A stretch of 38,241 nucleotides of DNA from Flavobacteriales bacterium (lineage in GTDB: Bacteria > Bacteroidota > Bacteroidia > Flavobacteriales > BACL11): contig DUAO01000014.1 in NCBI GenBank assembly GCA_012960805.1, positions 1 through 38,241 on the forward strand. The letters run 5' to 3'. Numbering within the stretch: position 1 is the first letter of the stretch; each line of letters begins with the position of its first letter. The position numbers and the translations under genes are program-made. This document shows positions 9,069-14,795 of the stretch, piece after piece. Below the pieces are notes generated by a model, which did not search any database, was not told where the DNA came from, and saw only the letters and a program-made list of their open reading frames with translations.

Positions 9069-9098
9069 CACTAAGTTAGCTATCACTAAGTTAGCTAT
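9069..9098. repeat. Perfect tandem duplication of 15 bp
   Basis: CACTAAGTTAGCTAT occurs at 9069-9083 and again directly at 9084-9098, without mismatch. It lies in the 130-bp gap between the zinc-ribbon gene and the 3' end of porT. The lack of divergence suggests a recent slippage event or a two-site binding element. Confidence 0.9.
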
Positions 9099-10585: not shown

Positions 10586-11559
10586 TATTGGATGAGTTTG
10601 ATTGCTTCAGAAAGTAATTTTTCTTTGTTAATAGGCATTACTCCAACCTCTTTACATACTATTCCTCCAGCTAAAGTAGACAGTACAGATAAATCGGTAT
10701 ACTTTATACCTGAAGCTAAGCAAAGGGAGGCTACTGCAATTACAGTGTCCCCAGCACCGGACACATCAATAATGTCACGCTTAAAAGCAGGGGTATGTTT
10801 GAATCCATCTGCTGAGTTTATGCAAATCCCTCTTTCCGATAAGGTTAATAAAATCCCTTTTGCATTAAGTAGTTTACGTAATTCAGTTGATGCTTTTTCT
10901 ATTTCAGAAACATTATCAGCATTAAAATCAATATTCATTCCTGCTTTAATTTCAGCTAAGTTGGGTTTGAATATTGTACAATTTTTATAGGAATTAAAGT
11001 TCTGTTTTTTAGGATCAACAATAGTTGAGATCCCTTTTTTATTAGCTAATTTTATCACTTTTTCAATTACTTCACAAGTAAGCACTCCTTTGTTGTAATC
11101 TTGTAATATAATGACATCAATATTCCCCATTAAACTTTCAGTAAGTTTCAGGAATTCACTTGAATCAATAATAGGAGAGGCTTCTTCTTCATCAATTCGT
11201 AATTGATGTTTATTATTGGCAATAACCCTTGTTTTGACAGTTGTTTTTCTCTCTGTTTTAGCAAGAATCCCTGCAGTTGATAGCTCAGCTTCTTGCATTA
11301 ATTTTAAGAATAATCTACCTCTATTTCCTATGCCTACTACTGAGCATAAAATAGGGTTTGATCCTAAAGCTTTTAAATTTAAAGCTACATTAGCCGCTCC
11401 GCCTAATCGGTTTTCGTGTTTCTTTACTTCAACTACTGGTACAGGGGCTTCTGGTGACATTCTATTTACTTCCCCCCACATATAAGCATCAATCATTGCA
11501 TCCCCTACAATGAGGACATTCTTTTGATTAAACCCTTCAAATAATGCTTTAAAATCCAT
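10585..11559 (-). CDS. PfkB-family kinase, heptose-7-phosphate kinase (RfaE domain I/HldA) type
   Basis: Predicted to phosphorylate D-glycero-beta-D-manno-heptose 7-phosphate in ADP-heptose synthesis for LPS core. The 324-aa product has the RfaE-specific stretch EVNRMSPEAPVPVVEVKK near residues 29-46, followed by RLGGAANVALNLKALG. The PfkB signature DVSGAGDTVIAVASLCLASG, with the catalytic Asp, is near the C terminus. Only the kinase domain is present; the adenylyltransferase half of bifunctional HldE is missing. Its ATG overlaps the stop of the aminotransferase gene (TAATG). The heptose substrate is inferred from the family. Confidence 0.85.
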   Translation of the reverse strand: MDFKALFEGFNQKNVLIVGDAMIDAYMWGEVNRMSPEAPVPVVEVKKHENRLGGAANVALNLKALGSNPILCSVVGIGNRGRLFLKLMQEAELSTAGILAKTERKTTVKTRVIANNKHQLRIDEEEASPIIDSSEFLKLTESLMGNIDVIILQDYNKGVLTCEVIEKVIKLANKKGISTIVDPKKQNFNSYKNCTIFKPNLAEIKAGMNIDFNADNVSEIEKASTELRKLLNAKGILLTLSERGICINSADGFKHTPAFKRDIIDVSGAGDTVIAVASLCLASGIKYTDLSVLSTLAGGIVCKEVGVMPINKEKLLSEAIKLIQ

Positions 11560-12755
11560 TAGTTCAATTGGGCTAATTGTTTTTTGATTCTATCCATTGC
11601 TTGCATGAGTTTCTCATCAGCAGCTGCATAAGAGATTCGTACACATTCAGGATTCCCAAAGGAATCACCTGCAACCAAAGCAACATGTGCAGAATTTAGT
11701 AAATACATACAAAAATCATCTGAATTATTTATAGTAGTTGTTCCGTCTGATTTCCCAAAATAATAACTTACATCAGGGAAAACATAAAATGCACCTTGAG
11801 GGACATTACATTTAATACCTTCTATATTATTTAATTCTGCTAAAATCATATCTCTCCTTTTTAGGAAAGTGTCTTTCATCTGTTGTGTTGTTGATCTTGG
11901 GTCGGCAAGCATTGCTCTTTCTGCAGCTTTTTGTGCTATTGCGCAAGTAGCAGAAGTAACTTGCCCTTGCACTTTATTACAGGCTTTTGCAATCCAAAGT
12001 GGTGCGCCAATAAAACCTACACGCCAACCCGTCATAGCAAATCCTTTTGAAACTCCATTAACAGTGATGGTACGATCCTTCATTGAAGGGATAGTGCCTA
12101 TACTAAAGTGTTTTTCAGTAAAATTAATATGCTCATAAATTTCATCTGCCACTACATAAATATCAGGATGTTTTTCTAACATTTTCGCTATAGCCTCCAG
12201 TTCTGATCGAGTATATACAGTCCCACTAGGATTACATGGGGAGCTGAACATTAACAGTTTAGTTTTTGGTGTAATTACAGCTTCTAACTGCTCAGGTGTT
12301 ACTTTAAAATCCGAATCAATTGTTGAGGGTACTTCTACCGGAACACCTTCTGCTAACTTTACAAGTTCAGTATAGCTAACCCAGTAAGGACAAGGTAAAA
12401 GCACTTCATCTAAAGGATTAAGTAAGCTTAAACAAAGATTGGCTAATGATTGTTTTGCACCAGTTGATGTAACAATTTGATCAGCAGTAAACTCTAAGTC
12501 ATTATCTCTTTTAAATTTTTGTACAATTGCACTTCTGAGCTCTGGTAAACCAGGAACTGGAGTGTAGTGCGAGAAATTATCATCAATTGCTTTTTTTGCT
12601 GCCTCTTTTATAAACTCTGGGGTGTCAAAATCTGGCTCTCCTAAGCTTAAGGCAATTACATCAATTCCTTTAGCTTGTAATTCTCTACTCATTCTTGCCA
12701 TAGCTAGAGTTGCTGATTCTGCTAATCGGTTTAACCTATCTGATACTTTTGTCAT
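11559..12755 (-). CDS. Aspartate-type aminotransferase (class I, PLP-dependent)
   Basis: Transaminase of fold type I, subgroup I-gamma by appearance, probably acting on aspartate or another amino acid with 2-oxoglutarate. At 398 aa it is full length. The N terminus has ALSLGEPDFDTP and HYTPVPGLPELR, and the PLP lysine lies in VNGVSKGFAMTGWRVGFIG. The substrate-carboxylate Arg lies in the C-terminal part (CVRISYAA). It is the first gene of the operon with the heptose kinase, ubiE and porT. A minus-strand TATATTTGC box lies about 30 nt upstream. The exact amino acid specificity cannot be read from sequence. Confidence 0.92.
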   Translation of the reverse strand: MTKVSDRLNRLAESATLAMARMSRELQAKGIDVIALSLGEPDFDTPEFIKEAAKKAIDDNFSHYTPVPGLPELRSAIVQKFKRDNDLEFTADQIVTSTGAKQSLANLCLSLLNPLDEVLLPCPYWVSYTELVKLAEGVPVEVPSTIDSDFKVTPEQLEAVITPKTKLLMFSSPCNPSGTVYTRSELEAIAKMLEKHPDIYVVADEIYEHINFTEKHFSIGTIPSMKDRTITVNGVSKGFAMTGWRVGFIGAPLWIAKACNKVQGQVTSATCAIAQKAAERAMLADPRSTTQQMKDTFLKRRDMILAELNNIEGIKCNVPQGAFYVFPDVSYYFGKSDGTTTINNSDDFCMYLLNSAHVALVAGDSFGNPECVRISYAAADEKLMQAMDRIKKQLAQLN

Positions 12756-12783
12756 GCTTGTTACTTATGGTTTTTAAAAGGAG

Positions 12784-12791
12784 CAAATATA
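12784..12791 (-). promoter_or_regulatory. -7 box for the aminotransferase-porT operon
   Basis: Minus strand TATATTTG followed by C, an exact TAnnTTTG match, with a leader of about 22 nt to the ATG at 12755. A -33 box is not clear. Confidence 0.5.
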
Positions 12792-12889
12792 GGTAATAGT
12801 AGTTAGTTGGTTGTTTTTAGTTGTCAGAAAATTAGAGGTCATAATGAATGAAAGTCTTTTTTGCAAATGATTTTCTATATATTTACAAA

Positions 12890-13225
12890 ATGAAAAAATT
12901 ATTATTTTTAACTGTATGCCTGTTGATTTCAGGAATCACAAATGCACAAAAGGTATTCTCGGTTGAATACGCAAGCCAAGCTGATGTAAAAGTATTTGTT
13001 GCTGATTATGAAAGCAGAGCTGATTTGTCTGTATTTAAAGTGGATTATGAAAGCCGTGCAGGAGAGAATGATGGAAATTGGTTTTTTGTAGATTATGCAA
13101 GTAGGGCAGACAAGAAAATATTTTTTGTGGACTACGCTTCACAAGCTGATGTTATCATTTTTTTTGCTGACCATAGCAGTAGGGCAGGGTGGAAGAAGAA
13201 AGAAAAAATGCATTTATTTTATTAA
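12890..13225 (+). CDS. Secreted repeat protein of the 'septoil knot' / DUF6150 type
   Basis: The 111-aa product has a clear signal peptide (MKKLLFLTVCLLISGITNA, cleavage before QKVF). The mature 92 residues are almost entirely six imperfect repeats of about 13 aa, consensus xVFxVDYxSxADx. They lie at about residues 21-33, 34-46, 47-59, 64-75, 76-88 and 89-101, with a short AGENDGN insert after the third. The tail ends KKKEKMHLFY. This VDYESQAD-type pattern matches what I recall of DUF6150, a family predicted to form a 7(1) knot (septoil knot). Its function is not known. I chose the ATG at 12890 because it starts the signal peptide; an in-frame ATG at 12848 adds 14 unneeded residues. A lipoprotein gene follows after 9 nt. 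Confidence 0.8.
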   Translation: MKKLLFLTVCLLISGITNAQKVFSVEYASQADVKVFVADYESRADLSVFKVDYESRAGENDGNWFFVDYASRADKKIFFVDYASQADVIIFFADHSSRAGWKKKEKMHLFY

Positions 13226-13234
13226 TAAAACAAA

Positions 13235-13843
13235 ATAAAAAAACTACTACTTATATTACTTTACTTGCCTTTACTTTTTACAACTTGCAAGAAAGAAGAT
13301 TCTTTGATAGAACCTTCTAATATTACTATTAATAATAAGTGGCAACTGTCAATGCAAAGTACTTCTCTTGCACAAGGGGACCAGTATGCTTCTGGTACCT
13401 GGATAGATTGGTTAGTAACAGGAACTGTTTACACTGGAAGGATAAATTATATAAGTTCAGGTTCAATTATGGTAAGTAACGATACTGTTTTCCCTGGTGT
13501 ATCTTCAAGCTATTCTTCAAGGGTTTGGAGTATTACTAAAAATCAGGTTACGGTAAATGGTCTTACTGCATCATCTATTATAGATACTTATTATGATGAG
13601 AATGGATTTTCTTATAATATATCGCAACATAATTTTACTAAAAATTTAGATACAATAGTTGTTAATTTTCAGTCAGGTGATATAAAGAAATTTGTAATAA
13701 ATGAATTAACTGCTGATAAATTGCATATTACTTCAATACCTGACACAAACTACATTCCAGTATTTGATATAAATGGTATTTATCAAGATACTGTTATGAT
13801 GAATCTTACTTCAGATAACTATTTCTTTGATAAAGCACAATAG
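13235..13843 (+). CDS. Lipoprotein of unknown function with an apparent ATA start
   Basis: The frame opens after a TAA at 13226. It reads N-K then ATA-AAA-AAA-CTA, giving (M)KKLLLILLYLPLLFTTC, a lipoprotein signal peptide with the lipidated Cys at about residue 19, followed by KKED. No ATG or GTG is available in front of this signal sequence. A TTG exists at 13265, but starting there would destroy the hydrophobic core. So either ATA at 13235 is the start, or an ATG has mutated to ATA. The 184-residue mature part is rich in Thr, Ser and Asn with beta-like segments (NNKWQLSMQ, IVVNFQSGDIKKFVIN), vaguely like lipocalin-type Bacteroidota lipoproteins, but I do not recognise the family. It is probably co-transcribed with the knot-type gene 9 nt upstream and is convergent with meaB. 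Confidence 0.65.
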   Translation: MKKLLLILLYLPLLFTTCKKEDSLIEPSNITINNKWQLSMQSTSLAQGDQYASGTWIDWLVTGTVYTGRINYISSGSIMVSNDTVFPGVSSSYSSRVWSITKNQVTVNGLTASSIIDTYYDENGFSYNISQHNFTKNLDTIVVNFQSGDIKKFVINELTADKLHITSIPDTNYIPVFDINGIYQDTVMMNLTSDNYFFDKAQ

Positions 13844-13853
13844 TTATAAATAA

Positions 13854-14795
13854 TTAAAAGCTACTTAATAACTGATAAATAGTTTTCCCTTTTATTAATT
13901 CTTTTTCCAGATCTTTAAGTTTTCTTTCAGCTAAAAGTAAGTTGTATTGTTTACTGCCTAGCTCTTCTTTTACTATATGGTGTAGCCAATAGATATTTTG
14001 CTTTTCTCTATTTTTATTTTTCCATCCACTAGCACTCATTTGGGAATCATAAGTAGTTATCATATCCCAAATTCCATCAATTCCTGTATTTTCCAAAGCA
14101 GAGCAGGTACTTACTTTAGGTGTCCATCCGTTTTCCATAGCCGGGAATAGGTGTAAGGCTCTTTTGTAAGCTAGTGAAGCATTCTTGGCATTTGTAATAT
14201 TATCGCCATCCGCTTTGTTAATGATAAGTCCGTCCGCCAATTCCATTATTCCCCTTTTTATCCCTTGCAATTCATCACCAGCGCCTGCAAGCATCAATAG
14301 TAAAAAGAAATCTACCAAATTACTAACTGTAGTTTCGCTTTGTCCAACGCCAACGGTTTCTACTAAAATAACCTCATAACCTGCCGACTCACACAAAATA
14401 ACGCTTTCTCTTGTTTTATTGGCCACTCCACCCAAAGTTCCGCTACTTGGGCTAGGGCGGATAAATGCATTCTCATTAGCTGCTAGTTCGTGCATACGGC
14501 TTTTATCCCCTAAAATACTGCCCTGTGTTTGTTCACTAGTTGGGTCAATAGCCAAAACAGCTACTTTCTTCCCTTGGCTAGTTAGTAGTTTGCCAAAAAC
14601 TTCAATAAAGGTACTTTTACCAACTCCTGGCACTCCTGTTATACCTACTCGTATTGATTTTCCACTATGGGGTAAGCATTCAGCAAGTAATTCCTGTGCT
14701 TGTTTTTCATGCTCAGGCAAGGTGCTTTCCAAAAGGGTAATTCCTTTTCCTAATGCAGTGCGATTCCCTTTAATTATTTGCTGAGCGAGTTCCAT
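13854..14795 (-). CDS. meaB: Methylmalonyl-CoA mutase-associated GTPase MeaB (ArgK-like)
   Basis: G3E-family GTPase that protects and loads cobalamin-dependent methylmalonyl-CoA mutase. At 313 aa the length is typical. Walker A is GVPGVGKST (about 54-62), and LVETVGVGQSE is the switch/Walker B region. NKADGDN is the base-specificity motif. The ATG overlaps the stop of ridA (TAATG). The mutase genes are not in the window, so the partner is inferred from family knowledge. It is the last gene of the long lpx-ser operon run. Confidence 0.94.
   Translation of the reverse strand: MELAQQIIKGNRTALGKGITLLESTLPEHEKQAQELLAECLPHSGKSIRVGITGVPGVGKSTFIEVFGKLLTSQGKKVAVLAIDPTSEQTQGSILGDKSRMHELAANENAFIRPSPSSGTLGGVANKTRESVILCESAGYEVILVETVGVGQSETTVSNLVDFFLLLMLAGAGDELQGIKRGIMELADGLIINKADGDNITNAKNASLAYKRALHLFPAMENGWTPKVSTCSALENTGIDGIWDMITTYDSQMSASGWKNKNREKQNIYWLHHIVKEELGSKQYNLLLAERKLKDLEKELIKGKTIYQLLSSF

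Follow-up and report, generated by a model that had tools for sequence, protein, structure and literature searches.

What a protein made almost wholly of short repeats, and perhaps tied into a knot, does after leaving the cytoplasm is the question raised by a small gene in the stretch of DNA analysed here (the window, 38,241 nucleotides of contig DUAO01000014.1 of a Flavobacteriales bacterium); nothing on the function of knotted repeat proteins was found in the literature searched. An earlier note, made from the letters of the window, had described six repeats, and these are real: identities at a lag of 13 residues number 33 in the mature chain, as against 5.8 ± 2.3 (maximum 16) in 20,000 shuffled versions, a periodicity far in excess of chance. 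The repeats, of about 13 residues each, read QKVFSVEYASQAD, VKVFVADYESRAD and LSVFKVDYESRAG in the first half and (ENDGN)WFFVDYASRAD, KKIFFVDYASQAD and VIIFFADHSSRAG in the second, followed by the conserved tail WKKKEKMHLFY. The insert that the note had placed after repeat 3 amounts to three additional residues, so that repeats 3 and 4 are spaced by 16 residues where the usual step is 13. Of the Tyr, Ser and Ala described there as invariant, Ser and Ala do occur in all six repeats, whereas Tyr is present in five and replaced by His76 in repeat 6. Outside the repeats, W45 is invariant in the alignment and profile of the family discussed below, the tail residues W82, K87, L90 and Y92 are conserved in its profile, and some of these non-repeat features (W45 with G43; W82, K87 and Y92) may form a second site. 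Coordinates are collected in Table 1.

Table 1. Features of the repeat-protein gene and its product, in window coordinates
Feature	Position	Strand	Basis
DUF6150 gene, 111-aa precursor (coordinates include the stop codon)	12890..13225	+	Translation; PF19647 match; dN/dS
Sec signal peptide, 19 aa, predicted cut before Gln20	12890..12946	+	Sequence reading; family +1 Gln; Q-rule papers
Repeats 1-3, 13 aa each: strand plus Y-x-S-[QR]-A-[DG] turn	12947..13063	+	Lag-13 identity; model strands 2-5, 14-18, 27-31
Inter-repeat linker ENDGN, 3 residues beyond normal spacing, then invariant Trp45	13064..13078	+	Lag-13 identity; family alignment
Repeats 4-6	13079..13189	+	Lag-13 identity; model strands 44-47, 56-60, 69-73
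Tail WKKKEKMHLFY: predicted short seventh strand (~81-82, including the final residue of repeat 6) and C-terminal helix 85-91	13190..13222	+	Model; conservation

The same note had proposed the protein as a candidate member of DUF6150, which was borne out by a match to Pfam PF19647 (E 8.5e-22, 77.4 bits against a cut-off of 27, profile positions 6-97 of 98), also recovered by a profile search of the genome to which the window belongs. The hallmarks of the family in the profile and in an 83-member alignment, namely six repeats, a G-x-W linker after repeat 3 and a tail of the form W-x(4)-K-x(2)-L-x-[YF], are all found in the protein, whose membership we regard as practically certain on its sequence. 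DUF6150, whose Pfam/InterPro name we take to be '7(1) septoil knot', is a known but uncharacterised bacterial family to which the window adds one member, and no paper naming it, nor any described function, was found in the literature searched. Among the other profiles tried, Pfam ODC_AZ and AlcCBM31 (E 0.03-0.18) and NCBIfam GFO_1090 (E 0.065) scored under their own cut-offs and were rejected, and the PADLOC anti-phage defence profiles gave no match to the protein at E up to 1.

The gene is single-copy in its 1.57-Mb genome, and relatives were found in 12 of 13 genomes of the same genus, in 13 of 23 other genomes of the family, in one of 23 from elsewhere in the order and in 20 of 395 sampled over the phylum; from these counts, DUF6150 is patchy yet stably kept in this small-genome genus. 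Further relatives occur in 37 of 294 genomes of one other class and in 19 of 29 genomes of one family, some of these holding two or three copies. Scanning bacterial genomes gave 523 places encoding relatives, of which 80 were kept, nearly all labelled Bacteroidota. In genome G205, two divergent DUF6150 genes adjoin as a tandem pair (L041, ~700-1800; L046, 1390-2485). At another locus (L044, reverse strand, frame from 1420), the DUF6150 domain has five repeats and no signal peptide, and after it come a Ser-rich stretch, a probable membrane helix and an SH3_3-like domain (a weak match, below cut-off); five repeats would give a 5_1 knot in the idealised barrel considered below.

The export signal noticed earlier also held up on closer reading. 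The junction between the putative Sec signal peptide and the mature chain consists of MKKLLFLTVCLLISGITNA followed by Q, and this Gln at position +1 is nearly invariant across DUF6150 relatives in the family alignment and profile. Substrates of signal peptidase I in Bacteroidetes follow a Q-rule, with Gln at +1 (PMC5837995, PMC10653852). Since the near-invariant Gln fits this rule, the sequence gives good support for export into the periplasm or further out, and we consider export very probable for the window protein. The mature chain has 92 residues, no Cys and a pI of 5.6. A second in-frame ATG lies at 12848, 42 bases upstream, and the start was taken at 12890 because this one is common to the relatives. 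The dN/dS of the gene against its relatives is 0.04-0.15, equally low in the flanking enzymes, and strong purifying selection acts on it. Between positions 11559-14795 of the window and the related locus L048, dS is 0.40 in the DUF6150 gene and about 1.15 in both flanking genes, a difference that suggests interspecies exchange of the DUF6150 gene.

The earlier note had linked the gene to a lipoprotein gene, and a two-gene system would agree with the lipoprotein-like frame (13235-13843, IKKLLLILLYLPLLFTTCKKED...) that begins 10 bases past the stop codon. Its start codon here is ATA, however, or else a TTG at 13265 that leaves no signal; among the relatives, a single genome (L007/L054) has a homologue behind the gene, which starts with ATG and is frameshifted, and other close relatives lack one. 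The frame looks like a decaying lineage-specific gene and not a conserved partner, and a two-gene system is scarcely credible. The other neighbours, named from their sequences, are an aspartate aminotransferase, a MeaB-type GTPase, RidA and YggS, whose synteny is confined to the lineage of the window, PnuC- and NadR-like or unrelated neighbours taking their place elsewhere; operon logic was therefore set aside as a guide to function, no partner being conserved across lineages. Eleven contigs classified as viral (L128-L138, up to 348 kb) also encode DUF6150 proteins, with signal peptides in those read and with some neighbours matching phage DNA primase, DNA polymerase A or HNH endonuclease families, and no DUF6150 match was found in the isolate phage and plasmid records searched. 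That phages carry a gene for an exported protein would be in keeping with a role at the envelope, for instance in superinfection exclusion, although this is speculation. Elsewhere in the window, a tmRNA gene occupies positions 15-384 of the minus strand (tag GENNYALAA) and an exact 15-base tandem duplication, CACTAAGTTAGCTAT twice, lies at 9069-9098.

The structure prediction proposed in the earlier note yielded an ordered fold. With an alignment of 83 sequences, AlphaFold2 gave a pLDDT of 96.9 and a pTM of 0.86, and from the single sequence a useless model (pLDDT 42). The fold is confidently predicted to comprise seven short strands, six from the repeats (residues 2-5, 14-18, 27-31, 44-47, 56-60 and 69-73) and a two-residue seventh (81-82), with a one-turn helix after each repeat strand and a C-terminal helix (85-91). 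When this model was compared by Foldseek with 350,542 PDB chains, the first four of 49 matches were all Q9PR55 (8iwa, 8iwb, 8jrm), the protein in which a 7_1 knot, the most tangled known in any protein, was first predicted (PMC9278004) and then confirmed by crystallography (PMC13352647, PMC11223836), and which the title of entry 8jrm presents as 'Solution structure of a 7_1 knotted Q9PR55'. These matches are weak (E 0.018 and prob 0.75 at best, TM 0.32, rmsd 10 Å), the local environments agreeing and the overall superposition failing to, which could come from an error of repeat register or from a real difference in topology. Sequence searches of the PDB by phmmer and hmmsearch at E up to 10 returned no Q9PR55 chain, whether the query was the window protein, two family profiles, a diverse profile, the five-repeat relative or an idealised repeat, and a search of a viral fold library with the model gave no match. 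According to PMC10672856, moreover, AlphaFold2 ignores topological barriers.

A knot would arise in the following way. The chain would make about two circuits of a small parallel barrel, which would place strand i next to strands i+3 and i+4, and each crossover would pass over another strand, giving a (2,n) torus knot that would be 7_1 where the tail completes a seventh pass and otherwise 5_1; a published remark describes 7_1 as 5_1 plus one winding (PMC9278004). In idealised geometries, which take this strand order as a hypothesis, a seven-strand i+3/i+4 barrel has determinant 7 in most random closures, six strands most often give 5, five strands at 144 degrees also give 5, and a one-round strand order gives the unknot. 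As ideal barrels thus give 7 with seven strands and 5 with six, the window protein, with six repeats and a short seventh strand, would be 7_1 or 5_1. Mean-field covariation over all positions (Neff ~60) favours the i+3/i+4 neighbour set (permutation fraction 0.008-0.017) and does not favour i+1 neighbours (0.63-0.74), but without equivalent positions the i+3/i+4 set is no longer favoured (0.24; Neff ~60), and covariation is weak support for this order.

Two other topologies have to be weighed against a 7_1 barrel. An unknotted beta-solenoid or sheet with a single round of 13-residue coils, in which the equal turns would be stacked ladder-like on one face, would accommodate one strand and one turn per coil, much as insect antifreeze proteins have 12-residue coils; such a ladder would also favour equal turns, and the poor superposition on knotted Q9PR55 would be understandable. 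Nevertheless, none of the 49 Foldseek matches is an antifreeze protein or another beta-solenoid while Q9PR55 holds the leading places, the i+1 neighbours expected in a solenoid are those that covariation over all positions does not favour, and the mature chain lacks cysteine, which together leave the solenoid improbable. The protein may instead be knotted as 5_1 or another torus knot, its tail falling short of a seventh pass: only six repeats are full and the seventh strand has two residues, the six-strand ideal model most often has determinant 5, and P73136, a relative of Q9PR55 with 48% identity, is reported with a predicted 5_1 knot (PMC9278004). The strong conservation of W82, K87, L90 and Y92 in the tail, which is expected if the last pass matters, speaks against it, and we hold this alternative to be possible but rather unlikely. 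We consider that the window protein is probably knotted and that its knot could well be 7_1 specifically, at a little under even odds, a link that draws on the first four Foldseek places of Q9PR55 and on the geometric argument.

A clue to what the repeats do comes from their turns. Many DUF6150 proteins repeat one turn sixfold, be it YESQ, YASQ, YxNQ, YKSE, WKSD, YDYQ or YKYD. Among 30 sequences that share less than 70% identity when the turns are left aside, positions 9-11 of the turn were 63% identical between repeats of one protein and 28% between proteins at the same repeat, the corresponding values for strand positions being 33% and 45%. A companion shuffle test gave z of 13-22 for positions 8-11 and values about zero or below for strand positions 1, 3 and 5; these shuffles ignore the tree, and the turn effect persists in sets less than 50% identical. 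The turns of the window protein itself are less uniform (ASQ, ESR, ESR, ASR, ASQ and SSR). This concerted evolution of the turns seems unreported, being absent from the literature searched, and the equality within proteins indicates that selection acts on the turns as one ring of equals, which is likely to function as a unit. The simplest reading would be that the turns of the ring either pack together or share a partner that is itself symmetric or repetitive.

Concerted evolution is common in tandem repeats, and the equality could in principle reflect homogenisation of the DNA by gene conversion or repeat turnover, devoid of functional meaning. In this case, however, the turn alone is homogenised and the rest of the repeat is not. 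Both AGY and TCN codons are used by 66 of the 112 proteins having Ser in all six turns (those of the window are AGC, AGC, AGC, AGT, TCA and AGT), and the repeats have a codon identity of 0.53, the expected value being 0.50; since the codons are mixed and their identity is near expectation, homogenisation is very improbable. A closer contender is a purely structural cause, in which adjacent turns pack, substitutions spread round the ring and no ligand is involved. Strong couplings link a turn position in repeat i with its equivalent in repeat i+3 or i+4 (S23-S65, S10-S65 and R37-R79, ranks second to fourth), as packing would predict, whereas position 9 (E, A, S, K, D or P), which to judge from its residues is probably solvent-exposed, is nonetheless homogenised (z 22). 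Such packing is quite conceivable without being the favoured account, and a ligand-binding function of the ring is put forward as tentative.

Altogether, our preferred reading, to which we give a probability of about 0.5, is that of an exported DUF6150 protein under purifying selection that would form a barrel traversed twice and tied as a torus knot, with its ring of turns as a multivalent surface. In this reading the six (seven) short Y-x-S-Q-A-D turns would form one ring of near-equal sites acting as a unit, most likely binding, in the periplasm or at the envelope, a partner of repetitive or symmetric build, and the knot would confer resistance to unfolding and proteolysis outside the cytoplasm. 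It is weakened by the low similarity to Q9PR55 in structure and sequence and by the topological caveat on AlphaFold2, and likewise by the want of a conserved operon partner, the less uniform turns of the window protein and the covariation obtained without equivalent positions. A bolder version, in which the exported protein carries a complex knot, its six turns make a single cyclic binding face under so tight a constraint that they all evolve together, and Bacteroidota phages also carry the gene as an envelope-targeted accessory with a role between phage and host, we regard as unlikely. The concerted turns offer a concrete, testable clue to the role of a knotted repeat protein; moreover, should the knot be confirmed, DUF6150 would show that a protein can become very intricately knotted beyond the cytoplasm, once Sec has exported it, and with 523 matches in one scan of genomes the family provides hundreds of natural sequences for studying such folding.

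Compared with known systems, the window protein shares with PF19647 DUF6150 the repeats, the middle linker with its Trp and the tail, and nothing excludes it from that family. Q9PR55 of Ureaplasma (PDB 8IWA, 8IWB, 8JRM) provides its best structural matches in the PDB and is of similar length, at a TM of 0.32 and an E of 0.018 and with no sequence match at E up to 10; what sets the window protein apart from Q9PR55 is its export signal, its linker and its C-terminal helix. P73136, of 112 residues and predicted as 5_1, belongs by its published description to the same proposed series of torus knots (PMC9278004). The Knotted Solenoid of Brevundimonas, reported as exclusive to another bacterial group, is likewise a repeat protein with a torus knot, as the window protein would be, and is set apart by its description as a 3_1 knot in a solenoid nearest to pentapeptide-repeat proteins (PMC13123833).
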